From a virus, in the IMG/VR virus record IMGVR_UViG_3300049847_000076, positions 1-35,490 of that record: DNA of 35,490 nucleotides, one strand, 5' to 3'. The notes beneath the pieces were generated by a model. The model had not been told where the DNA came from and made no database searches. It was given only the letters and a program-made list of their open reading frames with translations. Position numbers and translations under genes: made by a program. This document shows positions 2,687 through 30,088 of this stretch, in pieces (the first letter of the stretch is position 1; every line of letters starts with the position of its first letter).

Positions 2687-3098
2687 GAAGGATGCGGGCT
2701 GCTGGACGAAAGAAAGGTAGGTTGCGATTCTTAGCTTCAGATTGCAGCCAGTTGATGACTCCCTCCATGTTCTTGCGGATATAGGAAGGAGTCCATACGT
2801 CTAGTATGTCTTTATGGCCTTTGCATGCACACCCCTCGGATTCCTGGAAGAAGATGGATAGGGTGTTGGATAGTCGAGTGCCAAATCCATGAGAGTGACC
2901 GTCTACTACTGAGCGTAAGTATACTGGGTCTAGATCTGGTTTGTAGACTAGAGCTAGCGTAATTGTATGTGCGTTCAGTCGTCTGGATCTAGGACAATTA
3001 GTACATGCGAGACAGGTAGATTCATCGATAGGTACTGCTATTTCTGCTATCGATGATGCTATCTCGCAGGTATTATCTATGTTGTGTGGGCAAGCCAT
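2652..3098 (-). CDS. Cys-rich protein, paralog B, of the glycosyltransferase cassette
   Basis: A 148-aa protein that aligns by eye with the product of 5068-5541. Shared features are C3-PH-N, T10-C11, a VPIDxxTC-xAC block (C29, C32; this copy adds C35), LNxxT, an IFF/IFQ helix and a second Cys pair in EGCAC. The CxxC spacing suggests a zinc-binding knuckle. Similar short Cys-rich proteins occur beside glycosyltransferases in planctomycete-associated phage regions as far as I recall; no activity is known. It is the last gene of the leftward array. It overlaps the methyltransferase gene by 22 bases and the convergent rightward gene by 35 bases. Confidence 0.8.
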   Translation of the reverse strand: MACPHNIDNTCEIASSIAEIAVPIDESTCLACTNCPRSRRLNAHTITLALVYKPDLDPVYLRSVVDGHSHGFGTRLSNTLSIFFQESEGCACKGHKDILDVWTPSYIRKNMEGVINWLQSEAKNRNLPFFRPAARILLNTLLLYEESR

Positions 3099-3559
3099 TT
3101 CTTACCTATTCCGCATATCACTGGAAAACCGTATAGGTCGATTAAGGTATCTAGTGCTATGACTTCGTAGTCTTTGAACAAGAAATGCGTATAAGCATCC
3201 ATACCGAAACGGTAACAATCTATAGGATACCTATGTAAAGGAAATCCAAATGTGGGTGTTGATATGATTAGCGTTCCTCCAGGTAATAGTAGAGATTTAA
3301 GATGCTCTACTGTTCTCCAGGGATTGATATCGTGCTCTAATGTCTCACAGCAAATTACAGCATCGTATGAATCTGTTAGGTCTAATACGTCATCTATAAC
3401 TAAATCAACGCATGGTCCTTCTTGTCTATCTACGCCTAGATAAGATTCGCTCTGTATAGCATCTCTGATAGTTCCATTTATATTTAGAGATCCTACTTCT
3501 AATACAGACTTGAAAGGTTTAACATTTCTTCGTACAAAATCTATAATTGCAGGAATCAT
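3077..3559 (-). CDS. Class I SAM-dependent methyltransferase
   Basis: The 160-aa protein has a Rossmann methyltransferase core: motif I SVLEVGSLNINGT at about residues 18-30, an acidic strand-end YLGVDRQEGP at about 40-49, a motif IV-like DAVICCETLEHD at about 66-77, and a post-IV segment LLPGGTLIISTPTFGFPLHRY. This layout matches small methyltransferases that methylate glycans or small molecules (Methyltransf_11/23 type). ATG overlaps the upstream glycosyltransferase stop by 4 bases, the classic coupled ATGA. Together with two glycosyltransferases it may cap a glycan by O-methylation; the substrate is inferred, not visible. Confidence 0.85.
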   Translation of the reverse strand: MIPAIIDFVRRNVKPFKSVLEVGSLNINGTIRDAIQSESYLGVDRQEGPCVDLVIDDVLDLTDSYDAVICCETLEHDINPWRTVEHLKSLLLPGGTLIISTPTFGFPLHRYPIDCYRFGMDAYTHFLFKDYEVIALDTLIDLYGFPVICGIGKKWLAHTT

Positions 3560-4134
3560 ATTTGTTCATTGATTAGTGGTGATTGACCTAACCATGCTTC
3601 TGCACAGTACCTATTGTAATTGAATGTTTTTGGGTGAGGTAACTTAGTGATATAGTCTGAACGTGCCCACCAGAAATTACCTGAATAGTGTTTGTGTGCA
3701 TGTACGTAGAAACTGTCAAAACCAGCACCTCCATTAGTAATTCTAGGACCAGAAGTCCATCTGTAATACAGGTGACTTACTCTATTGATCCAATCAATAA
3801 GCGTAAAATTACTTAAATCTCTTCGCCATAGTCTATGCTCTAAGGAGTCTGGTCTGGATACTCCTTTTAAATGGCAATAGCAGATAGCAGTATTCTCTTC
3901 AAGTTCGTCGTACAGTAACTCTAACGTAGGGAACTCGTATGATGTTAGCGACTGTTTGGTGTTTAATACTCGTACATTAGGTACATCAGGTATACTACCG
4001 CCAACACTAGCTAAAGTAATCTCTGCTTTACGTAGTAGTCCACTAAATCTAATATCTTCCAGGATTTCAGATAGTAGCGGTTCCCAAGTGTACATCTTCG
4101 CTACGTGTACGTAGACCTTTAATTTGTTGAACAT
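3556..4134 (-). CDS. Probable glycosyltransferase-like protein
   Basis: The protein begins KLKVYVHVAKMYTWEPLLSEI, a Rossmann-like first strand and helix. A block ICYCHLKGVSRP and a late segment with GGAGFDSFYVHAHKHYSGNFWW-type residues and YCAEAWLG follow. HxKG and a late NFWWARSDYI motif are typical of phage and bacterial glycosyltransferases that act on short glycans; this is recall at family level. ATG 4134 is preceded by TTAAGAA; a GTG at 4149 in the same frame is an alternative. The 5' end overlaps the GT25-like gene by about 68 bases and the 3' end overlaps the methyltransferase start by 4 bases, so all are co-translated. Confidence 0.65.
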   Translation of the reverse strand: MFNKLKVYVHVAKMYTWEPLLSEILEDIRFSGLLRKAEITLASVGGSIPDVPNVRVLNTKQSLTSYEFPTLELLYDELEENTAICYCHLKGVSRPDSLEHRLWRRDLSNFTLIDWINRVSHLYYRWTSGPRITNGGAGFDSFYVHAHKHYSGNFWWARSDYITKLPHPKTFNYNRYCAEAWLGQSPLINEQI

Positions 4135-5089
4135 ATTTCTTAATATCACTTACTTCGATAATGTTAGGGCAGACTTGAGAGAGTTGCTCGCGGGTAATGC
4201 GGGGATGATACAGGCAAGGGAGTGCTTGGGAATTAGAGCGAACTATCTCTGATCTGATCCAGTTGTACCATCTAGCTATTTCAGGAATAGGATCTGCTAG
4301 TTTAGATGCTAAAGATAGAGTAATATCATAGCCGTTAGCATCTACTTGATTGCCGCAATGTAAGTATCTGATTGCTGTGAGTAATGGTTCTCTTGGTCCT
4401 CTATACAGTACGCATACAGGATTATCGTACAGTGTGTGATTTAGTGATAATGAGGAAGGATCTGTAAAAAATGTCACAGGTTCTTCTTTACCAGAGATAC
4501 TTGAAGAATCACCCATTTGACCTACTAGCCATTTAGCTGGACAGTATACTTTAGTTGTAGGATCTTCGTGCCATCGACCTAGGTGATGATCGATATGCTC
4601 TCTAGAATGGAATGGCAAATTGGTTAAGTGTTGGTATGCTGTTAGCATTCCTGCTGAAGATATACCAAACGCATGAGTACGATTGACATTGAATGGTCGA
4701 TATACGTGCTCATTTAATTTGATTGGAGGATGAGTATACTCATGGACTAGTTGTCCTCCTAAGTATACTTGCTGCCAGTCCTCCGGCACCGACTCCTGGA
4801 AGATAGAGAGGTCTGTGACGTAGGAGGGTAAGAACTTAGCATCATCCTCGAAGACTAGGTAAGAGCCTATACGGTTGTTTAGACAGTACTCTAGTATACT
4901 TATGTGTGATCGGTAACATCCCCATGCTCCATTACCTGCGGTCCAGATATCTGGAGGTTTGCACGTGTCTCCATGTATTGCTGGCCATACTTCAGGATCA
5001 GGTATACCAAGATTTTTAGTCTGACTGAAGAATTCTTTTAGTCTAGTATCTTTATGCGGTAGCGATATTACGAACGAACGCTCGAACAT
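4067..5089 (-). CDS. Glycosyltransferase family 25-like protein
   Basis: A 340-aa protein with the GT25 (LOS/collagen galactosyltransferase-like) signature. SFVISLPHKDTRLKEF at residues 5-20 is the nucleotide-sugar binding start. GAWGCYRSHISILEYC at about 54-69 and YLVFEDDAKFLPSY at about 77-90 follow; EDD is the metal-binding acidic cluster. The C-terminal half (about 210 onward) is not recognised and may hold a second acceptor-binding region. It probably transfers a hexose to a phage structural protein or host glycan; the acceptor is unknown. Four AGTATACT copies (4543, 4733, 4762, 4893) lie inside the gene. The start overlaps the upstream Cys-rich gene by 22 bases. Confidence 0.85.
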   Translation of the reverse strand: MFERSFVISLPHKDTRLKEFFSQTKNLGIPDPEVWPAIHGDTCKPPDIWTAGNGAWGCYRSHISILEYCLNNRIGSYLVFEDDAKFLPSYVTDLSIFQESVPEDWQQVYLGGQLVHEYTHPPIKLNEHVYRPFNVNRTHAFGISSAGMLTAYQHLTNLPFHSREHIDHHLGRWHEDPTTKVYCPAKWLVGQMGDSSSISGKEEPVTFFTDPSSLSLNHTLYDNPVCVLYRGPREPLLTAIRYLHCGNQVDANGYDITLSLASKLADPIPEIARWYNWIRSEIVRSNSQALPCLYHPRITREQLSQVCPNIIEVSDIKKYVQQIKGLRTRSEDVHLGTATI

Positions 5090-7424: not shown

Positions 7425-8054
7425 TTAGGAATAGGAGATTGAAGTTAGTACGCCAGATGTGTAGGTGAATGTTTTTGTTAGTGGAACTCCGGCAGGAACT
7501 AGTCCTGATAGAACTATGGTAGTTAATACTCCTGAAGTATAGTTGAATGTCTTAGTTATAGTTCCGCCAGGGACAGTATACACTATGGATGCAAGTATAT
7601 CTGAAGAATAACTCCATGCTCCGGCATATGCTTGTAAATTCTTGTTGATCGTTTCAAATGTACTTTGTTCTTCAGTCAGAGTTATTACTTCGGTCTGTCG
7701 CAGACCTAGGTTATTGTAGATAGACCAACCATTAGCACTTTCGTATTGAGCAGTACATCCTGGATCTATCGTTACCTTAAAAAATACTTTAGTTGTATCT
7801 TTTGCTAAAGTAAATATATGAACTACTGTATCCGCATTGTACAGTACAAACCGCATTACTCGTTTCTGAACAGACGCAGATCCAGTAAGTACTGATACAT
7901 TAGTAGTTCCTGTAGTAGCTCCTTCAGCCGAAGAAGCCATGTTATAAGTACCACCAGTAGCAGATACATAGCTTAGTGACCATAAAGGTTCAGTGGTTGT
8001 AGCTGCTGCATCGGTCTTTACATGGAAGTCTTGACCTGATTCGATTATTATCAT
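7425..8054 (-). CDS. Putative virion structural protein (209 aa)
   Basis: The N-terminal half (MIIIESGQDFHVKTDAAATTT, then a VMRFVLYNADTVVHIFTLAK strand pair and IDPGCTAQYESANGWSIY) resembles small phage proteins that display a beta-sandwich. The C-terminal half contains two copies of a short unit: TKTFNYTSGVLTTI and TKTFTYTSGVLTSI, each preceded by a GLVPAGVP or YTVPGGT segment. Such tandem beta-hairpin units are common in tail appendages. ATG overlaps the upstream poly-Ser gene stop by 4 bases (ATGA). The function is inferred from context only. Confidence 0.6.
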   Translation of the reverse strand: MIIIESGQDFHVKTDAAATTTEPLWSLSYVSATGGTYNMASSAEGATTGTTNVSVLTGSASVQKRVMRFVLYNADTVVHIFTLAKDTTKVFFKVTIDPGCTAQYESANGWSIYNNLGLRQTEVITLTEEQSTFETINKNLQAYAGAWSYSSDILASIVYTVPGGTITKTFNYTSGVLTTIVLSGLVPAGVPLTKTFTYTSGVLTSISYS

Positions 8055-8497
8055 AGTACTCTATCTGGGTTAAGGTCTATTGGATCGAAACCTAGGTTTA
8101 CTCTAAATGGTGAATCGCTAGGAGATTCTTCTGGATCTACGCAAGCTGGAGCAATGACTAACCAATCTCCAAAACCAGCATCCCATTGACACAAGCAAGT
8201 AGTTCTACAAGTCAATCCAAATTTCTTACAAGTACCTAAAGCTAGTTCTCCGTCATATGCTCCACTTCTTGGAGGAACTTCACAAGTACATCCTGTTAAA
8301 ACAACTGATGAAGACGAAGATGATGATGAGCTAGAGGAAGACGGTGTAGATGATGAAGACGAAGGACTAGATGAAGAGGATGATGGACTAGACGAACTTG
8401 ATGATGAACTTGAGGAAGATGATGAGGAAGATGATGAGGAAGATGATGAACTAGAGGAGGAGCTAGTACAACAGCATATTACCATAGGTAAGGACAT
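8051..8497 (-). CDS. Poly-serine linker protein with Cys-rich C-terminal domain
   Basis: A 148-aa protein with three parts. The first is a short N-terminus ending in CCCT (residues 8-11). The second is a tract at about residues 12-64 in which about 49 of 53 residues are Ser, broken only by Pro and one Thr. The third is an 84-aa Cys-rich domain with TGCTCEVPP, GTCKKFGLTCRTTCLCQ and PACVD. Ser codons are mixed between TCN and AGY, which argues for selection on the protein rather than simple DNA expansion. I recall similar Cys/poly-Ser proteins in planctomycete phage-like regions. The tract could be an O-glycosylated or flexible tether on the virion. The start uses AGGAAGTATACTATG. Confidence 0.8.
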   Translation of the reverse strand: MSLPMVICCCTSSSSSSSSSSSSSSSSSSSSSSSSSSPSSSSSSPSSSSSTPSSSSSSSSSSSSVVLTGCTCEVPPRSGAYDGELALGTCKKFGLTCRTTCLCQWDAGFGDWLVIAPACVDPEESPSDSPFRVNLGFDPIDLNPDRVL

Positions 8498-10041: not shown

Positions 10042-11322
10042 CTAGACTTTGACTGGGGCAGGTTTAGGGGGAGTTGCTTTCTTAGCTGTCTCTAGTTTCT
10101 CTGCCTGAGGAGTTCCAGCATTGTCAAAGGATTTGGGAACTATGCGTTTGATTTCATAGTCGTCTGTGAACTTGTTGTATGGCAGGAGTATTAGATCCAA
10201 GATCTGCTGTCGAAAATCGGTAATGAGATCTGATCCAATTGGAGTCAATGATGCAATGAATGCCATCAGAGGAACCATTCGTCCTGTAGCTGATCCTAAT
10301 CCAGAGGTCTTCGATTGAACTACTTCAGGAGGTATACCTAATCCTTCTAGTTCTTCATCTGCTAGTCGTTGTAGGTACTCTACCATTCCTTGAGGAGTTA
10401 TATTTGCTTTAGGAGGAACATATTCCCAATCTCTCTTGCCGTCTAATCCTTTCTTCGCAGGGAATATGGACGTAGAACCTGATCGTTTGGCTTCCATCAT
10501 TTCGACTGCTAAGTGCTCGTTATTGTACGGTACTCCATTCTCATCTGTGAATGATCCTTCAGGATAGTATAGCTCTCCTCCATCGTATGCATTTTTGAAG
10601 AACCATGTTCGGCGGATATCTCTAGCTCCCCCCATCATCCAGGTTTCGTGCCAGGGAACATGTGCTCCTCTAAGCCGAGATAGACCGTAGAAATAGTCAT
10701 GCTCTCGTTTATGTAAATGCCAGAATCCCTTACCTAGAGGGATAAAGCCATTGCGATCATTGTTACGAACAAAACCTATAACTCCATTGTTCTTAACTAG
10801 TGGCTGAAGTGCCATAGCTTTGTACGGATGTAGGTTATCGAAGATCAGTTGCCCATCTTTAGTTAGCTTGTACTTGACTTCTGATCCAGAGAATCCCCAT
10901 TCGATAGCTTGCATCGCTTTGAAGATACCTACTTCCCAGAAGCGATTGAGTTGCTTGATGATGAACTCTTCTTGCTTCTTGTTCTTGCAGAATACCGCAT
11001 AAGGGAAGTGATAGTCTAATTCAATGATAGCCTGAGATATATCGGGAGACTTAGACTCTTCTTCGCTAAAGAATTTGGTGTATGTAGCTATCGGTCCTTT
11101 GATGAGCGATAGACCAAACTCGATTCTAGGATCTCTTAGCATTGTCGATATAGTCATCATCGAGAATACTGGATGATGATGGGCGTATCGAGAATCGACT
11201 AGTTGATACTGTCTCTGTATCGGTGCTTGGCTCTTAAGATGACCGAGCATGTAGTTCAAATCAATTTTCGACGTAGGAGTCGATTTCTTCATTTCATCGA
11301 GCATGGGTTCCGCCCCTCCCAT
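10042..11322 (-). CDS. Portal protein (DUF935/Mu gp29-like)
   Basis: The portal forms the dodecameric ring at the capsid vertex through which DNA is packaged and ejected. The 426-aa product shows the Mu gp29/DUF935-type layout: MLRDPRIEFGLSLIKGPIA near residue 60, a KAMQAIEWGFSGSEVKYKL helix-strand unit, LHPYKAMAL, FWHLHKREHDYFYGLSRLRG, and a C-terminal LADEELEGLGIPPEVVQ helix before a Pro/Lys-rich tail. M1 at 11322 sits right against CCAGGA, so translation may instead begin at ATG 11304, which has GGAGGGG about 8 bases upstream. Placement downstream of the tail genes, instead of beside terL, is unlike lambda order. Confidence 0.8.
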   Translation of the reverse strand: MGGAEPMLDEMKKSTPTSKIDLNYMLGHLKSQAPIQRQYQLVDSRYAHHHPVFSMMTISTMLRDPRIEFGLSLIKGPIATYTKFFSEEESKSPDISQAIIELDYHFPYAVFCKNKKQEEFIIKQLNRFWEVGIFKAMQAIEWGFSGSEVKYKLTKDGQLIFDNLHPYKAMALQPLVKNNGVIGFVRNNDRNGFIPLGKGFWHLHKREHDYFYGLSRLRGAHVPWHETWMMGGARDIRRTWFFKNAYDGGELYYPEGSFTDENGVPYNNEHLAVEMMEAKRSGSTSIFPAKKGLDGKRDWEYVPPKANITPQGMVEYLQRLADEELEGLGIPPEVVQSKTSGLGSATGRMVPLMAFIASLTPIGSDLITDFRQQILDLILLPYNKFTDDYEIKRIVPKSFDNAGTPQAEKLETAKKATPPKPAPVKV

Positions 11323-11406: not shown

Positions 11407-11678
11407 CTAGGTGGCTAGTTGTTGCCTAGTAGGTTCTGGCATGGTATTGAGGGCCATTTGGACTTTAGCTTGTAGAGCTAGTTCTTTATCTTCTGTGGCT
11501 TGTAGGGTAAGTTGGTATGCTGCTTCGGGAGATAGAGGAACTTTTCTATTTCGTTCCTCTATCTCTTCGATAGCCTTTATCGTAGGATCTATGTAGTGGA
11601 GGAGGAAGAGGTCTCGCTCGGTGAGTCCTGAGTAGCCATAGCGTCTGATGGTTCTGGCTCTGGGTATAATTTTTTTTT
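11407..11678 (-). CDS. -1 frameshift extension of the tail-chaperone candidate
   Basis: Reading frame -1 relative to 11589-11933 stays open from the A9 run to TAG at 11409-11407. Decoding with slippage on A AAA AAA gives a 175-aa fusion: 88 residues of the zero frame plus 87 new ones. The extension includes YGYSGLTERDLFLLHYI, IKAIEEIEERNRKVPLSP and a Glu/Ala/Gln-rich C-terminal helix, a plausible protein with codon use like its neighbours. It has no suitable start codon near its 5' end, so frameshifting is the natural way to make it. This matches the lambda G/GT mechanism for tail assembly chaperones. Experimental slippage is unproven. Confidence 0.6.
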
Positions 11679-11933
11679 GACATCTTGCATTACTTTATGA
11701 GTTAAGTCCCATATAGATCCTGCTGCTGTCTTTGATACTTTCCGTTTGTACTTCTTTTGGAATGCTCTAGCGATCTCTTCTTCTATGGAAGAGTCTTCAG
11801 GAACATTTCCTATTCTGATAGAATCTATCATGTTGGCTACGTCAATAGCGTCAACTATGATAGGTTCTTGTCCATCAGGGAATTTGAATCGAATTTGGGT
11901 TTCTTCTGCTGATGGGAGAAAACAGTCTAACAT
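11589..11933 (-). CDS. Putative tail assembly chaperone (gpG-like), frameshift-capable
   Basis: A 114-aa zero-frame product. The N-terminal half is a beta-rich IRFKFPDGQEPIIVDAID domain; the second half is helical (EEEIARAFQKKYKRKV, SIWDLTHKVMQDVKKK), then a low-complexity tail that ends in Ser/Thr. The length and a poly-A slippery site two-thirds of the way in are typical of short tail chaperones made in short and long forms. AAGGATC precedes ATG 11933. Position is unusual: the gene follows the tape measure and a minor tail gene instead of preceding the tape measure. The function is inferred from the frameshift architecture and tail context. Confidence 0.65.
   Translation of the reverse strand: MLDCFLPSAEETQIRFKFPDGQEPIIVDAIDVANMIDSIRIGNVPEDSSIEEEIARAFQKKYKRKVSKTAAGSIWDLTHKVMQDVKKKLYPEPEPSDAMATQDSPSETSSSSTT
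11670..11678 (-). promoter_or_regulatory. Slippery A9 sequence for -1 ribosomal frameshifting
   Basis: Nine consecutive A on the coding strand are read in the zero frame as AAA AAA AAA (Lys 86-88). The last seven provide a perfect A AAA AAA heptamer. It is the longest A run I noticed inside a leftward gene, and the -1 frame downstream is open for 87 codons. Transcriptional slippage on A9 is an alternative that would give the same fusion. Confidence 0.6.
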
Positions 11934-12006
11934 GGTCTGATCCTTAGGGAAGGAGTATAGGATAGTATACTAGTAAATGGTACTGATGCAAGTGGGAATA
12001 GGTAAA

Positions 12007-12051: not shown

Positions 12052-13989
12052 TTAGGAGTAGTATCCTGGATGGCCGGTACTCTTCATGGTAGCCATGATA
12101 TCTTCAGATCTGATGTTGGACGATACGTTGTAGAGAATGTCCCACATAGCTAAGTATACTGGGGTAGTATCTGATTGAGCTATTTGTTTGTGGGATATAC
12201 GAGCTACGTCTGTTCGTTCTACAGGATTGCCTGCTACTGAGGTAAGTACTGGAATAGGAATTCTATGTCCTGCTCTAATAGCAAATCCTTTCATTCTTAT
12301 TTTGAATGTGGATATACCTCTAGAAACTGTTTCTGGTTGATAGTATCCAGAATCTATGTTTGATGTTTCGTTATCTATCTGAAATCCTATTGTTCCTCTT
12401 CCTACTCCTCCATCTGCATTATTGTTTCGATAGTAGGCGTTCGGTACAGGCTGTAGGTAGGAAGCCTGCATGTTATCGTTTGTTTGGATAAGCTCAAAGC
12501 TATTGTCGTAATGAACCCATGAGTAGTTGGGATCTACTCCTACTGATGGAGCGTAAGAGCTAGGTTCATTTTGTTTTATGGTTTCTCCTGCTGTCGCGTT
12601 TCCTGGAGAAGAGCCAGGGGAGACTGGTAATGTTAGATCTGGATCATTTTCTAGAGCTAGTAGTTTGGATGGTGTGATTACTGGTGCTTTAGGAAATTGC
12701 TCATATCCAAGTACGCATTGCGAATAAGATATAGGAGCTTCATACTGATAGCCCATAAGTCCGTTAGTAGCTGAAATGTCTACAGCATCCCAAATAAACC
12801 ATTGATTGGATAATGGAACTGCTGCTGAAGTTGCTTCTACTAATCCTGTTGTTGCATTAGGTCTGTAGCCACTATTGACTCTTGAGAGTACTAATGACTT
12901 ACTCATTAGACTTTCTAGTGAGGTAGTTATTAGATATTCAAAGTCAAAGGATATACTTCTAGTGTATATCGGATTGGTTATATGCATTTTGAGGAGTAGA
13001 TACTTGTTCTTAGTTGCTGCTGCATCTGCATTCTGGTTTCCAGGTTTTAGGGCATCTAAGGCAGCGGCTTTATCTAGTTGTTCTAGATTTCTAAGTCGTT
13101 CCTTTAAGATCTTCTTGAATATGACCCACGCCCATCCTTTATGAATACGAGGAGGTAATGTAATCTTTGCAGATATCTTACGGTTCCATTTATAGAAGCC
13201 ATCACCCAGCAAAGCAGATGACATATCGTCTGTGCATTCAACATTCTTAGTGAATGGATGGAACGCACTGTCGCTAGGAATTTCAGTATACGTAGCTTCA
13301 AAGATTGCTGTTCTTCTGTCTGTTGACAGTTTGGTAGACTTCTCTTGACGCATTCCTTGGAAGGATGCTCCTGCTTGAATACTGAATGAGTTCATCAAGT
13401 TGTTGAATGGATTTAGGTCTGTGATTATCGATGCTGCTTCATAGGTGACTCGTTGTACAAAGGATACATTTCCTTCATGGTCAACGTCCATATTTAGTTC
13501 GCTGACGAATTGAACTAGGTTCTTTAATGATCCTGTAGCACAATGGCTTATGCATGATGTAACAGTCCATTCAATATCTATTGCGTTGTTAGTTACTGCT
13601 GGCGTAACTGATAGAGATACTGGAAGCGGTCCTAGTGTGAGATCTGGTGTAAAGTCTGTTCCTGCTACTCCTACATTTCCATTGATCGTTGGTGTAGTTC
13701 CTAGTCCTGTAGGGTATATCTTTAGTTGCAATCTTGGTGTGCTTAATATCTTCTTGATACGATTTATCTCGTTCTCGATATCTCCTAGAACAGATACGGC
13801 GGAATAGATAGTAACAGCTATTGATATTTCGTACTGGTAATATTTTACTTGATAGCCATCGTCTCCATAGATTGGAGTAATGGTTAGTTTAGGTTTACCA
13901 GTGTACGGAATAACTACGTTAGCTGTAGTGTCTGGTACGCTATCTTGTGCTGATGGTCCGTAGACTATGTGTTGGTAGCATACTGTCAT
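12052..13989 (-). CDS. Large minor tail protein (645 aa)
   Basis: A 645-aa beta-rich protein next to the tape measure, so probably a distal tail, hub or baseplate component. It begins MTVCYQHIVYGPSAQDSVP. LSVTPAVTNNAIDIEWTVTS and FVQRVTYEAASIITDLNPF follow, and a charged helix FKKILKERLRNLEQLDKAAALDAL sits at about residues 290-315. A late domain has GVGRGTIGFQID and FKIRMKGFAIRAGHRIPIP, which read like beta-sandwich strands. I do not recognise a named family. TGGAATG precedes ATG 13989. AGTATACT at 12153 lies inside the gene. Confidence 0.65.
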   Translation of the reverse strand: MTVCYQHIVYGPSAQDSVPDTTANVVIPYTGKPKLTITPIYGDDGYQVKYYQYEISIAVTIYSAVSVLGDIENEINRIKKILSTPRLQLKIYPTGLGTTPTINGNVGVAGTDFTPDLTLGPLPVSLSVTPAVTNNAIDIEWTVTSCISHCATGSLKNLVQFVSELNMDVDHEGNVSFVQRVTYEAASIITDLNPFNNLMNSFSIQAGASFQGMRQEKSTKLSTDRRTAIFEATYTEIPSDSAFHPFTKNVECTDDMSSALLGDGFYKWNRKISAKITLPPRIHKGWAWVIFKKILKERLRNLEQLDKAAALDALKPGNQNADAAATKNKYLLLKMHITNPIYTRSISFDFEYLITTSLESLMSKSLVLSRVNSGYRPNATTGLVEATSAAVPLSNQWFIWDAVDISATNGLMGYQYEAPISYSQCVLGYEQFPKAPVITPSKLLALENDPDLTLPVSPGSSPGNATAGETIKQNEPSSYAPSVGVDPNYSWVHYDNSFELIQTNDNMQASYLQPVPNAYYRNNNADGGVGRGTIGFQIDNETSNIDSGYYQPETVSRGISTFKIRMKGFAIRAGHRIPIPVLTSVAGNPVERTDVARISHKQIAQSDTTPVYLAMWDILYNVSSNIRSEDIMATMKSTGHPGYYS

Positions 13990-14034: not shown

Positions 14035-14083
14035 AGTATACTCTTGAGTATTCTTTCAGAATTCTAGAAGAACGAAGTATACT
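14035..14083. repeat. Iterated AGWATWCT palindrome array, copy E1
   Basis: AGTATACT, AGTATTCT, AGAATTCT and AGTATACT are spaced about one helical turn apart in the gap between tape measure and minor tail genes. The sequence is nearly identical to 20936-20984. The last palindrome overlaps the tape measure stop codon. It may act as an operator cluster or a hairpin. Confidence 0.75.
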
Positions 14084-15752
14084 AGGGAACTAGGTTAGGC
14101 ATATTATTTCTGAATGCCTTTTTAGGTAGATCTTTGAAGTTGTTAGGATCTAGGAAGTCGCTAACTTGCTTTAGTACTGCATCTGTTAGGGCGTTCTGTG
14201 GAGCAGTGTTCTTAGCAATCTGTTCTAGTACTGCTGCAATAGCTTGACCCCAAGGACCAATAGCCTTTAGACTATTGAGAAACATAGGCCATGATCTATC
14301 TATAGCGTAACTAGCTACTTGTATGTGTTGAGCGATAAGACCTAAAGCAGCTAGTATAGCTGGTCCTAAGTGTTGTAGTGCTTCTGATTTGAATTCGTTC
14401 CAAGCTAGATCTAACTCTGTGAATGCCATAGTTAGTTGTGCTTTAATAGGATCATTCTTCTGAGCAATGTCTATTGATTGCATTAGCTTTCGAATGTCTC
14501 CTTCTACTGACGCTTGTAATGTTATTGGAGAGAATCCAATGTCCTTGCTGACTGCTTCTCTAATGTCTTCAGTTAGTGCTAATAAAGTATCAAAGCCTGT
14601 TACAGCTATTGTGGATATTGGATTGATACCTAACGGATCTGCTGCTCTAGATGTCAGGTGGGCTGTCTGACTCAGGAAGTCTGTAGCTTTTCCAGTTAAT
14701 GCAGATTTACCAATATCGGTAAGTACTTTGCCTGCTCCTTCAATTCCTTGATTGAGCGACTGAAGTCCTGTAATTCCTCCGGCTATTGCCATCCCTACAG
14801 CACCAAACTTCTCCATGAAAGATGCTTGAACTAGAGGAATAGCTGGTTTTAATAGATCTGGAGCTAATCCTAATTCTTCTGGCTTGTTCTGCGATAGTAA
14901 CTGCTCATTAAAAGCTCTATGTCTAGGATTTATGTTAGGGTCTTCTAGCTCTTCAAGTAGTTTACTCCTGTACGCATCTGTGAACTCTCCTTTGAATCCG
15001 CTCTTGGAAGTGACTACAGCTTTAGTAAATACTCCGTTCTTTGCTTTGTAGCCGTTACGAGCTAGTATTTCTTCGTTAAATGCTCTGTGACGAGGATCTA
15101 TGTTGGGATCTTTGAGTTCTTCGAGTAGCTTGTTTTGATACTCTTCTGTGAAAGCTCCTGAGAAGCCTTTACGAGAAGTATCTGCCCTACTCTCTGCTCT
15201 TGACTTAACTGCGTCAGAGAATATAGATTCTCGGTCAACAGACATACCAGAGATTTCATCTTCTCTAGCTCTTCGTCTCTCTACTTGGTCTGCTTCGAGA
15301 GCTTGCTGATATGCGGCATAGTTAGCATTGTATGCTTCTTCTGCTTTTATGTCTATCTGTTCTTTAGGACGGATGGAGAACTGATCTACCATAGAGGCAG
15401 CAACATATCCAGCGAATCCTAAAGAGGATGCTATGGAATATGCTTGTATTCGTTGAGATACTGCTGAAGAACGAATACTAATTCGTCTGTCTGCTGCTGC
15501 TCTCTTATCTAGTTTCGATTGTATGCGTCGTTGTCGAGTCTCATCTTGATGTTCTCTCTTAAGAACTAGCCTCTGTCTCTTCTGTTCATCAGCTAGCTTC
15601 TTCTGTTCGTCCTTTACCTTAGCAGCAACTATCTTATCAATATCTTCTACAGGAATCTTTTTCTTGAATGATGATAGATCAGTATTGGTAGTAATATCCG
15701 GCAAGTCATCTGGTTCATTATCGTCGCCGGTATCTAGTTCTGCATCTATCAT
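14082..15752 (-). CDS. Tape measure-like tail protein
   Basis: A 556-aa protein. The N-terminal 110 residues are charged coiled coil (VAAKVKDEQKKLADEQKRQ region), followed by an Ala-rich hydrophobic segment near SIASSLGFAGYVAASM. Two tandem units occur at about residues 195-300; each has FTEEYQNKLLEEL or FTDAYRSKLLEEL followed by DPNIDPRHRAFNE or DPNINPRHRAFNE. The C-terminal half has hydrophobic helices, AVGMAIAGGITGLQSLNQG and ILAALGLIAQHIQ. Coiled coil plus hydrophobic helices between tail tube and minor tail genes fits a tape measure. At about 0.15 nm per residue it would predict a tail near 80 nm. AAGGAATG precedes ATG 15752. Confidence 0.7.
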   Translation of the reverse strand: MIDAELDTGDDNEPDDLPDITTNTDLSSFKKKIPVEDIDKIVAAKVKDEQKKLADEQKRQRLVLKREHQDETRQRRIQSKLDKRAAADRRISIRSSAVSQRIQAYSIASSLGFAGYVAASMVDQFSIRPKEQIDIKAEEAYNANYAAYQQALEADQVERRRAREDEISGMSVDRESIFSDAVKSRAESRADTSRKGFSGAFTEEYQNKLLEELKDPNIDPRHRAFNEEILARNGYKAKNGVFTKAVVTSKSGFKGEFTDAYRSKLLEELEDPNINPRHRAFNEQLLSQNKPEELGLAPDLLKPAIPLVQASFMEKFGAVGMAIAGGITGLQSLNQGIEGAGKVLTDIGKSALTGKATDFLSQTAHLTSRAADPLGINPISTIAVTGFDTLLALTEDIREAVSKDIGFSPITLQASVEGDIRKLMQSIDIAQKNDPIKAQLTMAFTELDLAWNEFKSEALQHLGPAILAALGLIAQHIQVASYAIDRSWPMFLNSLKAIGPWGQAIAAVLEQIAKNTAPQNALTDAVLKQVSDFLDPNNFKDLPKKAFRNNMPNLVP

Positions 15753-15823: not shown

Positions 15824-16378
15824 CTAAGAGGTTGGGATGGTTTCTTTGAAGTATGCTGTTTCGGTACAGGCTACTGGTCGTAGTGGTGGAGAATAGGTTC
15901 CGCCAGCATCGTAGGAGCAAGGGAATACGATTAGTCGGATTGGAACTACTTTCTCTTGTACGCCTGAGTGATCTAGTACTACTTCGAATCCTGGAGCTAG
16001 GATTGTCTTGAAGAATGTTATAGACGTTGGATTGGCGTTCGTACCAGAACATGCGGTCATAATAAGTGGTTGTGCTGTATCCCACATACTAAAACCGGCG
16101 GCATTGACTCGACCTCTACCTGCTGAAACGTTTCCCCATGGCCAGGCCATAGTTTGGATTGCTGCTGAATTGTACTGCATACATACAAAGTCTAGCATCA
16201 TAACTAGGCCAGTGAACAGTGTGTCTACAGGAGCGAGTCCTACAGCATCAAAGTTAATTTCTTTCTGTAGATAGCTGTATCGGTGTTTGAATCCGCCTAT
16301 AGCAATGTTACCAATGTTCAAGGCATTCCATGTTGCAGAGTATGCTCCTGATACAATCTTTGTTGTGTCTAATACCAT
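15824..16378 (-). CDS. Putative major tail tube protein
   Basis: A 184-aa protein that begins MVLDTTKIVSGAYSATWNAL and continues IGGFKHRYSYLQKEINFD. The start of a tube protein commonly has this SGAYxATWNxxxIG pattern, where the chain forms its first strands, and the length is normal for a siphovirus tube monomer. FKTILAPGFEVVLDHSGVQEKVVPIRLIVFP near residue 125 fits the second beta-sheet. AAGGAAC lies before ATG 16378. It is directly followed by the tape measure gene. The leader has a 27-bp tandem duplication, unusual for this window. Assignment is by position and pattern, not by search. Confidence 0.6.
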   Translation of the reverse strand: MVLDTTKIVSGAYSATWNALNIGNIAIGGFKHRYSYLQKEINFDAVGLAPVDTLFTGLVMMLDFVCMQYNSAAIQTMAWPWGNVSAGRGRVNAAGFSMWDTAQPLIMTACSGTNANPTSITFFKTILAPGFEVVLDHSGVQEKVVPIRLIVFPCSYDAGGTYSPPLRPVACTETAYFKETIPTS

Positions 16379-23425: not shown

Positions 23426-24274
23426 TTAGGCTGCTAGAACGACTCTAGAAGCTACTGCTCCGTTGGATACTGCTTTGTTACCTCGCAGTAGTCCCATTCC
23501 TCGATCTGACCATGAGTCTGACCAAGAATTCCAAATGCGAACGCCCCATCGGTTTATATCTGATAGAGGTAATGAGGAGTCGAATTCGTATGCGTCTAAT
23601 CCGCATATTGAGTGACCCCACCAGTTCTCATCTTTGACTACAGGAATGTTCTGGAGTAGGCAGGACATTTCTTGATCGAATGAGAAGTCTCTATCGTATG
23701 GAGCTACTGATAGGTCTACCCATCCGTCTGTTACTTTGTGCAAAGCGGCATTGACCCAAGTAGCTTCATTATCATTGGAGCGACTCATGGATTGCTGTGC
23801 CCAATACTTTTGCGATGGTATTCCTCGTTTGATAGCGAAGTCCATACTGAGTGCTCCCCATCCGCCCTCGTCTGCATAGTTCTTGATAATGCAGGCTATA
23901 GCGTATGCTGATAGAGGTTCGTAAGGATCGTTTGCTACCATACGATTAAGCATTACTGCATGAGTGGTGCTATGTGCCCAACAGTATCCTTTACCGTTCT
24001 GGTCTAGAGATGGAACCATCTTTCCATCGTTTCCAGCTAGGCGTATATCGGATAGTTGAGATTGGGCCTGCTGTTTGTCCTTGATCCTTGAAGACCATTC
24101 TTCTCTAGGAATTAGTTTGATCTGAGAAGGAACCCAAGGTACTGCTCCGTAGCATCCGATTGGATGTGTGTTGTAGTTACGCGGTACTAATCCGAACGTA
24201 GTCTTCTCTCCGTTGATTACTACTGGTTCGCAATGTTCAAGATAATTCTTGTCGTCAATTACAAGTTCTGGCAT
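23426..24274 (-). CDS. Papain-like (C1 family) cysteine protease
   Basis: A 282-aa protein that should hydrolyse peptide bonds. The catalytic set is complete: Gln92 in SLDQNGKGYCWAH, Cys98 with CWAH instead of the usual CWAF, His221 in WWGHSICG, and Asn249 in VRIWNSWSDSWSDRGMG, matching the papain N-S-W. No signal peptide or propeptide motif is clear, but an 85-residue N-terminal region precedes the core. I recall close relatives in planctomycete-linked phage regions. It sits in front of the head genes beside a secreted protein, so it may act on the host envelope or in virion maturation; context cannot decide. AACGGAGCG precedes ATG 24274. Confidence 0.85.
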   Translation of the reverse strand: MPELVIDDKNYLEHCEPVVINGEKTTFGLVPRNYNTHPIGCYGAVPWVPSQIKLIPREEWSSRIKDKQQAQSQLSDIRLAGNDGKMVPSLDQNGKGYCWAHSTTHAVMLNRMVANDPYEPLSAYAIACIIKNYADEGGWGALSMDFAIKRGIPSQKYWAQQSMSRSNDNEATWVNAALHKVTDGWVDLSVAPYDRDFSFDQEMSCLLQNIPVVKDENWWGHSICGLDAYEFDSSLPLSDINRWGVRIWNSWSDSWSDRGMGLLRGNKAVSNGAVASRVVLAA

Positions 24275-28204: not shown

Positions 28205-30088
28205 CTAGACTAGAATAGCGTTAATTGCTGTTCTGTAGATACCTTCTAAAATTCCATGTCCGGTTGCGGTTGGGTGTAAGCCGTCACCGTAGTATGTAGC
28301 GTTATTGGCTGCGGCATCTGGCCCCATCGTTGCATTGGCTGCAAAGTCTATTACGAAATCACAATGCGTTCCAACGGCTGCCGCTATCTTGGTGTTGGCT
28401 GTAGCTCTACGTGTATTATGGGTTGCGTAACCACTAACTACTGTGCCTTTCGGCAGAATAGTACCTACCCCAACGTAATAACCCCTAGATCGTAGTTGGT
28501 CTGTAAGTAACCAGAGAGCAGTCAAAAACGCATCATCACTAGCGTAGTTTGGTTCTAGGTCATTCGCACCAGCCAGTATCGTACAGATAAACTTTCTGCC
28601 TGTTCTTTCGCTACTCTTTGCGGGGCAGCCAGCTAGGTGGTAAGGTAGTCGAACATCAAAATTCAGTTGCGGTTGTGGATTGAGGTGTAGGGTGGAACCA
28701 CCAATAGCTTCTTCTTGAACTCGGACAACTTTTCCGCCAGTGATGTTGGCTAAGTATTGTTGTAGGTAGCTATTGTTTGCTGGTCCTACGGTAATCGAAT
28801 CGATGCCTCCTACTAACAAGTTAGCTGGTTTCGTTACGGTGATTGACGATTCCGCTGCTTTAGCGATTAACAGGTTGATTGCAGTTCTTCGCTCTACATC
28901 AGTTAGCTTACGATTCCATATCGCTAAAGAATTCATCTTGAATTTAATTAAGCCAAAACTCGAATTCGAATTACCCACCTGGAACTTTCTGCTGGACATT
29001 GAAGTGCCAGTACCAATAGTATTGACTGCCATGCCCACATCATCCATCCACAAGTCTAAACCGCCTGCGTCTGCTGACATGCTCATTATGTGGTACTGAG
29101 CATCAGCATAGAGATCTGGGGAAAATCCGCCAACAGCAGGGGCTAGTAAGCGATTTCCGAAACATGAATTCAGATTACCCTCTGCTTCAAATTCTCCAAG
29201 GCACCAGGATGAGGTTGCATTAGGGGTTGTTGATTCCACTACGTCATAAATAAAGGGATACCTATATCCGGCGGAATTCGTGTAATTCGTTACCCGCTTC
29301 ACTACAGCAATAATGGTAGTTTCGCTTGTTGTCGTAAATGCGTTGAAATCAATTGCACCTACGCCACCATCTGTCAAGCCGATCTCACCGCCAGATATAG
29401 TTGCTATCGTCGCTCTTGATGAATTTCCGAATTGCAAGTCGCCTTGTAATGTCAAGTCCGCTGGAACGGTTACTGATGCCCCATCCCAAAGGTACGCCTT
29501 ATCGATTACTAGATCGCCATTACCTGATGTTGGCCGACAGAAGCGTAGATCAACAGCAGTAGTTGAACCAAGAGTGAATTCGTATTTGAATTGTTGCCAG
29601 GATGTAGTTGCTGTTTTGGTGACAGTAGTCGATTCCCCATCCTTTGACATGTAGAAATCTTGATTGCTTCCAGTATTAGACTTTGCGTCTATTACCATAG
29701 TATACGTACCAGCTAACAAAGACGGGGTATCCCTATAGCGTATGCCGCTTGTTGCCGATGCAAATACGGCTCGACTAGCAGCTACCACACCGTCACGCCC
29801 TGCTGCGTATTTTTCAGTAATAGTTGTTCCGCCGAATCCGCCACCTAACCAACCACCAGCACCTCCTTCTCCGCCAACTTTCCCAGTTTCGAATACACCG
29901 CGTGGGTTACGGGTAATTACTGCTAGTAGCGGATTGCCTGTTGCGGCATTGGGTATGGCTTTTCGGGTCGTATTGTAGTCTTTGGCGTACCAAATACCCA
30001 TAGCACCAGATGGCATACTTGAGTTACCTATAGAACTACCTTTGTAGTTGTACACTCTAGTTACTGCTGTATTTGATGTTAAAGGCAT
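28205..30088 (-). CDS. Tail fibre or depolymerase with C-terminal SGNH hydrolase domain
   Basis: A 627-aa protein. About residues 1-420 are fibre-like with a LamG/carbohydrate-binding style domain (VDLRFCRPTSGNGDLVIDKA, FQVGNSNSSFGLIKF and LAIWNRKLTDVER are typical). From about residue 423 an SGNH/GDSL esterase follows: GGIDSIT with nucleophile Ser about 431, GGSTL oxyanion Gly near 463, LAGANDL with Asn about 509, and the DGLHPTATGH block with Asp about 602 and His about 605. It could deacetylate host surface polysaccharide during adsorption. Fold and motifs are seen; the substrate is inferred. GGAG lies upstream of ATG 30088. Confidence 0.82.
   Translation of the reverse strand: MPLTSNTAVTRVYNYKGSSIGNSSMPSGAMGIWYAKDYNTTRKAIPNAATGNPLLAVITRNPRGVFETGKVGGEGGAGGWLGGGFGGTTITEKYAAGRDGVVAASRAVFASATSGIRYRDTPSLLAGTYTMVIDAKSNTGSNQDFYMSKDGESTTVTKTATTSWQQFKYEFTLGSTTAVDLRFCRPTSGNGDLVIDKAYLWDGASVTVPADLTLQGDLQFGNSSRATIATISGGEIGLTDGGVGAIDFNAFTTTSETTIIAVVKRVTNYTNSAGYRYPFIYDVVESTTPNATSSWCLGEFEAEGNLNSCFGNRLLAPAVGGFSPDLYADAQYHIMSMSADAGGLDLWMDDVGMAVNTIGTGTSMSSRKFQVGNSNSSFGLIKFKMNSLAIWNRKLTDVERRTAINLLIAKAAESSITVTKPANLLVGGIDSITVGPANNSYLQQYLANITGGKVVRVQEEAIGGSTLHLNPQPQLNFDVRLPYHLAGCPAKSSERTGRKFICTILAGANDLEPNYASDDAFLTALWLLTDQLRSRGYYVGVGTILPKGTVVSGYATHNTRRATANTKIAAAVGTHCDFVIDFAANATMGPDAAANNATYYGDGLHPTATGHGILEGIYRTAINAILV

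Follow-up and report, generated by a model that had tools for sequence, protein, structure and literature searches.

A conserved putative −1 frameshift gene next to the portal gene in uncultivated tailed phages, likely similar in role to the lambda tail chaperones

The stretch of DNA analyzed here as a whole (the window; 35,490 nucleotides, IMG/VR virus record IMGVR_UViG_3300049847_000076) comes from a tailed phage for which environmental DNA is the sole source. Its gene at 11407-11933 on the minus strand, directly upstream of the portal gene, almost certainly carries a conserved programmed −1 frameshift, as judged from the sequences of its relatives. The product is likely to act as a tail chaperone of the gpG/gpGT type, and we consider it fairly probable that the programmed frameshift and this role hold together. 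The occurrence of the shift in cells and its rate are what we infer from sequence.

The zero-frame ORF (11589-11933, minus strand) encodes the putative short form of 114 aa. It starts with ATG at 11933, preceded at a distance of 7 nt by a Shine-Dalgarno-like AAGGA (11941-11945, minus strand); an automatic scan likewise reported a four-base SD match. Near the 3' end of the ORF, between the codons GTC and TTA, there is a run of nine adenines (A9; 11670-11678, minus strand, T9 on the plus strand) read as AAA AAA AAA, and within it the in-phase slippery heptamer A AAA AAA (11670-11676, minus strand). A −1 slip at the heptamer would lead into an extension (11407-11676, minus strand) with 87 codons past the heptamer and a stop at 11409-11407, yielding a predicted fusion of 175 aa, the long form, with the junction peptide KKKIIPR and the −1-frame peptide sequence DLFLLHYIDPTIK. 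The −1 frame is open from 11694 down to this stop at 11407. Its first ATG, GTG, or TTG is 73 codons past the heptamer start, and no start codon in the window could produce the −1 domain independently. This layout, comprising the in-phase A9 inside a 114-aa gene and the slip into an 87-codon frame without its own start to give a 175-aa fusion, had been proposed from the letters of the window (the sequence-only reading), and the ORFs and codon phases bear it out. By itself, a run of at least eight adenines is unremarkable in the window, which has three A8 matches against 1.2 expected, with three or more reached in 13 of 100 shuffles. The case for the frameshift therefore rests on relatives.

The entry point to the relatives was an alignment of the large terminase of the window with three phage terminases, which yielded 80 loci, some two dozen of which are almost full-length relatives with 26–40% identity. 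Scans with single proteins (the short form, the portal, and the capsid) had produced no relatives, and tblastn against 50,697 phage records had produced no matches for the fusion, the window portal, the 645-aa protein encoded upstream of the fusion, or the capsid. The portal was present in 12 of the 27 records of terminase relatives, and the −1 half of the fusion had four matches directly upstream of the portal in these records, the best with E 5e-11. An alignment of the portals then gave 54 loci (L124–L177), which are the basis of the family counts; these loci were fetched via the portal, and the adjacency to it is partly by construction. When the remaining terminase relatives were searched with a profile, the −1 half turned up in only two records, both already known with this portal. 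Portal queries against 84,980 cellular genomes returned no relatives.

At 52 of the 54 portal loci, a zero-frame ORF just upstream of the portal contains an in-phase −1 heptamer leading into an overlapping −1 frame, which continues for 80–101 codons past the heptamer and ends beside the portal. The same two-frame architecture is seen in one further locus, L123. The distinct −1 proteins, including that of the window, number 43 and fall into 34 clusters at 50% identity. In all 43 distinct versions the heptamer is in the phase required for a −1 shift, being A AAA AAA in 36, A AAA AAC in three, A AAA AAG in one, G GGA AAC in two, and T TTT TTC in one. Runs of at least eight adenines occupy the exact site in 35 of the 43 versions and occur only twice elsewhere in 250,809 bases. 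Thus, once relatives are compared, the A-run at the slippery site is far beyond chance. The all-A lysine codons of the site are not explained by codon bias, as AAG makes up 48% of the lysine codons in the portals.

The −1 frame itself is under purifying selection: in six close pairs, dN was 0.02–0.09 and dS 0.35–1.75, with dN/dS of about 0.05–0.12. The −1 half is also the better conserved one, with a mean column identity of 30% versus 22% in the N-terminal half. In several members (L130, L152, L156, L161, L164, and L168) the zero-frame stop is found within one codon after the slip, so that the short form essentially consists of the N-terminal domain. That the family has kept the two frames together with the slippery site strongly supports the programmed −1 frameshift. 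The sequence-only reading had suggested looking for relatives that keep both frames and the run, and they do, at 52 of 54 loci and in 34 clusters; an intact run followed by a closed −1 frame, which it had listed as counter-evidence, was seen in no relative, the sole exception being L172/L177 with a run of ten adenines.

In L172 and L177 this A10 replaces A9 about 375–365 bases upstream of the portal match, and the long form is read in frame, while a −1 slip would lead to Lys-Lys-Thr-stop, that is, to the short form. Over 5,927 bases the two sequences do not differ, and hence they probably represent one source; their A10 is either a reversal of polarity, as in dnaX, or a one-base error. A rival explanation is that the two frames are one normal gene split by homopolymer sequencing or assembly errors, to which A9 runs are prone; the in-frame long form of L172/L177 speaks for it. 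We find this explanation extremely improbable, as the two-frame layout recurs in dozens of independent assemblies, four lineages (L131, L152, L156, and L169) have slippery sites without any run longer than six, and the in-frame loci are probably a single source. For the family, the relatives rule out an assembly error.

The family shift is best described as ribosomal, with the tRNAs in the P and A sites moving one base backward on A AAA AAN, G GGA AAC, or T TTT TTC. Such frameshifting is supported for the family as a whole, because slippage on long A-runs does not readily account for the G GGA AAC, T TTT TTC, A6C, and A7 sites; the A6C run and each of the four A7 runs sit in the single phase workable for tandem −1 tRNA slippage. 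For the A9 members, including the window, both ribosomal and transcriptional slippage are possible. In the transcriptional case, RNA polymerase would add an A on A9, and ordinary translation of the altered mRNA would give the long form. Exactly nine adenines are found in 29 of the 43 distinct versions regardless of the codon phase (19/7/3), and bacterial RNA polymerase slips efficiently on runs of nine A or T, as reviewed in PMC5009743. However, the A7, A6C, G GGA AAC, and T TTT TTC members retain the two-frame layout in the phase that the ribosome requires, and the three lysines at the long-form junction could by themselves produce the A9 peak. We therefore think it unlikely that transcriptional slippage is the source of the long form; along with ribosomal slippage, it may contribute in the A9 members. 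At loci L124–L177, the run length peaks at nine adenines in all three codon phases, which exceeds the need of the heptamer. Transcriptional slippage on A9 was absent from the sequence-only reading.

Elements that stimulate −1 frameshifting, such as a downstream structure or an upstream SD-like site, are helpful and not obligatory. No downstream stimulatory RNA structure was found in the window (z −0.16). Strong stems are predicted about 8 nt after the heptamer in L135 and L136 (A7; positions 2158-2217 in each), and a hairpin follows the A6C site of L131 (451-510). A general downstream structure across the family was not supported by the z-score of the window or by the comparison of short-run with A9 members, which fell short of significance (p 0.07 at best, for 60 nt; 0.16 and 0.44 for other lengths). 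An upstream SD-like site is present in seven of the 43 distinct versions.

The gene directly downstream of the frameshift gene (10042-11322, minus strand) encodes the portal protein, which matches phrog_113 at E 3.1e-8; its Portal_Mu match at 8e-4 is below the Pfam cutoff. One relative hits annotated portals of Bacillus phages at E 1e-14, and the profile comparison with the portal of Bacillus phage Eoghan gave 3e-18. Directly upstream of the frameshift gene lies a gene for a 645-aa protein of unknown type (12052-13989, minus strand), and in 12 of 12 relatives a homologue of 600–850 aa occupies this position. It is preceded, two genes upstream of the frameshift gene, by a gene for a probable tape measure protein of 556 aa (14082-15752, minus strand), assigned through its homologue in L118, whose hit to the tape measure family phrog_58 has E 2e-6. 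An iterated profile found tape measure homologues of 300–660 aa in 11 of 12 relatives. The next product (15824-16378, minus strand) had no family match; its position and constant size suggest the major tail protein, and it is kept in 11 of 12 relatives. The order of the probable major tail protein, the tape measure protein, the 600–850-aa gene, the frameshift gene, and the portal is kept in relatives with enough sequence. The phrog_58, phrog_113, and Bacillus phage portal matches thus agree with the initial placement of the gene downstream of the tape measure and beside the portal. The order, which had been called atypical and rearranged relative to lambda, is shared by the whole clade as a fixed trait and is no peculiarity of one genome.

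Lambda divides the work between its two forms: gpG, the short one, binds the tape measure protein, while the tail tube protein is the partner of the T part of gpGT. Low-level −1 frameshifting that produces a short and a long form is widely conserved in the tail chaperones of long-tailed phages (both points from PMC5009743). The gene described here most likely operates in the same way. It would make the 114-aa protein and, in a minority of passes, the 175-aa long form with an extra helical domain; the shared N-terminal domain would coat the tape measure protein, as does lambda gpG, and the rarer long form would recruit the tail tube protein via its extra domain, as does lambda gpGT. The tape measure gene two genes upstream, the sizes of both forms, which are in the known chaperone range, and the matching layout of an annotated chaperone pair in Bacillus phage Eoghan speak for this role. 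The combination of a short form and a C-terminally extended long form made by frameshift, by which chaperones are recognized, is also predicted here. On the other hand, neither in the window nor in the relatives does the gene immediately precede the tape measure gene, where chaperone genes are expected, and sequence and profile searches did not connect it to any family of tail chaperones.

AlphaFold modeled the short form (mean pLDDT 89.7) as a small two-stranded element with helices, and the −1 domain (mean pLDDT 88.1) as all helical. Fold searches of both halves in PDB and viral collections gave no significant match; the best viral match was an uncharacterized protein at E 0.029, and two named tail chaperones appeared at E 0.4 and 1.2. 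Such a lack of matches should not be read as a sign of a new fold. Since its position differs and homology was not detected, we do not file the gene as a member of a tail chaperone family. Accounts of it as bearing the gpG/gpGT signature thus hold for the two-form frameshift and lack a matching chaperone family or fold, and the role is one that we infer; still, there is a good probability that the gene works like gpG/gpGT.

The closest functional parallel is lambda gpG/gpGT, with a zero-frame short form, a rare long form made by a −1 slip at a heptamer near the 3' end, and similar sizes. The lambda slippery heptamer is G GGA AAG, which the G GGA AAC of L152, L156, and L158 resembles. Unlike the lambda gene, located just before the tape measure gene, the window gene follows it and is adjacent to the portal; moreover, the heptamers of the family are mostly A-runs, and homology to chaperone families was not detected. 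In Bacillus phage Eoghan, whose portal is homologous to that of the family, the annotated chaperone pair gp22/gp23 shares the layout, with A AAA AAA in phase shortly ahead of the zero-frame stop and then the −1 frame. However, the Eoghan pair occupies the canonical place immediately before the tape measure gene, and neither half showed significant similarity to gp22/gp23 in profile comparisons. The A-rich slippery run is shared with dnaX (tau/gamma) of Escherichia coli and Thermus thermophilus, and the Thermus run has a length of nine, as in the A9 members (PMC5009743). L172/L177 also share the polarity of dnaX, with the long form in frame. The dnaX gene is unrelated, and in most family members, by contrast, the shift is needed for the long form and not for the short one.

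With its position beside the portal, the gene might instead be a genuine frameshift gene that acts in building the head or neck, for instance as a portal assembly factor, and not the tail. At every locus examined it immediately precedes the portal, which is partly by construction, these loci having been fetched via the portal. Yet it is preceded by the tape measure gene and the conserved 600–850-aa gene, and short and long forms made by low-level −1 frameshifting are the widely conserved trait of tail chaperones in long-tailed phages (PMC5009743). Besides, in the window the gap of 71 bases between the genes for the probable major tail protein and the tape measure leaves no room for another chaperone gene, and no other candidate was seen there. 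We hence regard a head or neck role as doubtful. Less probable still is a more elaborate scheme, in which a large clade of uncultivated tailed phages has a portal-side frameshift gene unrelated to known tail chaperones, its two forms couple the portal or neck to tail assembly, and the slippage is by polymerase in A9 members and ribosomal in the others.

With a gpG/gpGT-like role as the preferred reading, the logic of a short and a long form produced by frameshift would persist in a phage group with a different gene order and no detectable chaperone homology. Therefore, a position beside the tape measure gene is an unsafe rule for finding such genes. The family also provides a natural series of sites (A6C, A7, A8, A9, G GGA AAC, T TTT TTC, and the in-frame A10 reversal) suited to testing how a site changes at constant two-frame output and whether ribosomal and polymerase slippage are interchangeable.

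Several other genes of the window could be characterized. A UvrD-like helicase (628-2304; phrog_1967, E 5e-60) is encoded on the plus strand, in contrast to the structural genes. The minus strand carries a cluster at 3077-5089 with a glycosyltransferase family 25-like gene (PF01755, E 3.5e-8) and a methyltransferase-like gene (PF13489, E 2e-8), and it encodes a 148-aa protein (8051-8497) with a very long polyserine stretch. Between the terminase and capsid genes, the product of 23426-24274 (minus strand) has a papain-like cysteine protease match at the Pfam cutoff (E 4.7e-4). In addition, a 627-aa protein (28205-30088, minus strand) carries a C-terminal GDSL lipase/acylhydrolase domain (PF13472, E 1.4e-12) and is possibly a tail or receptor enzyme.
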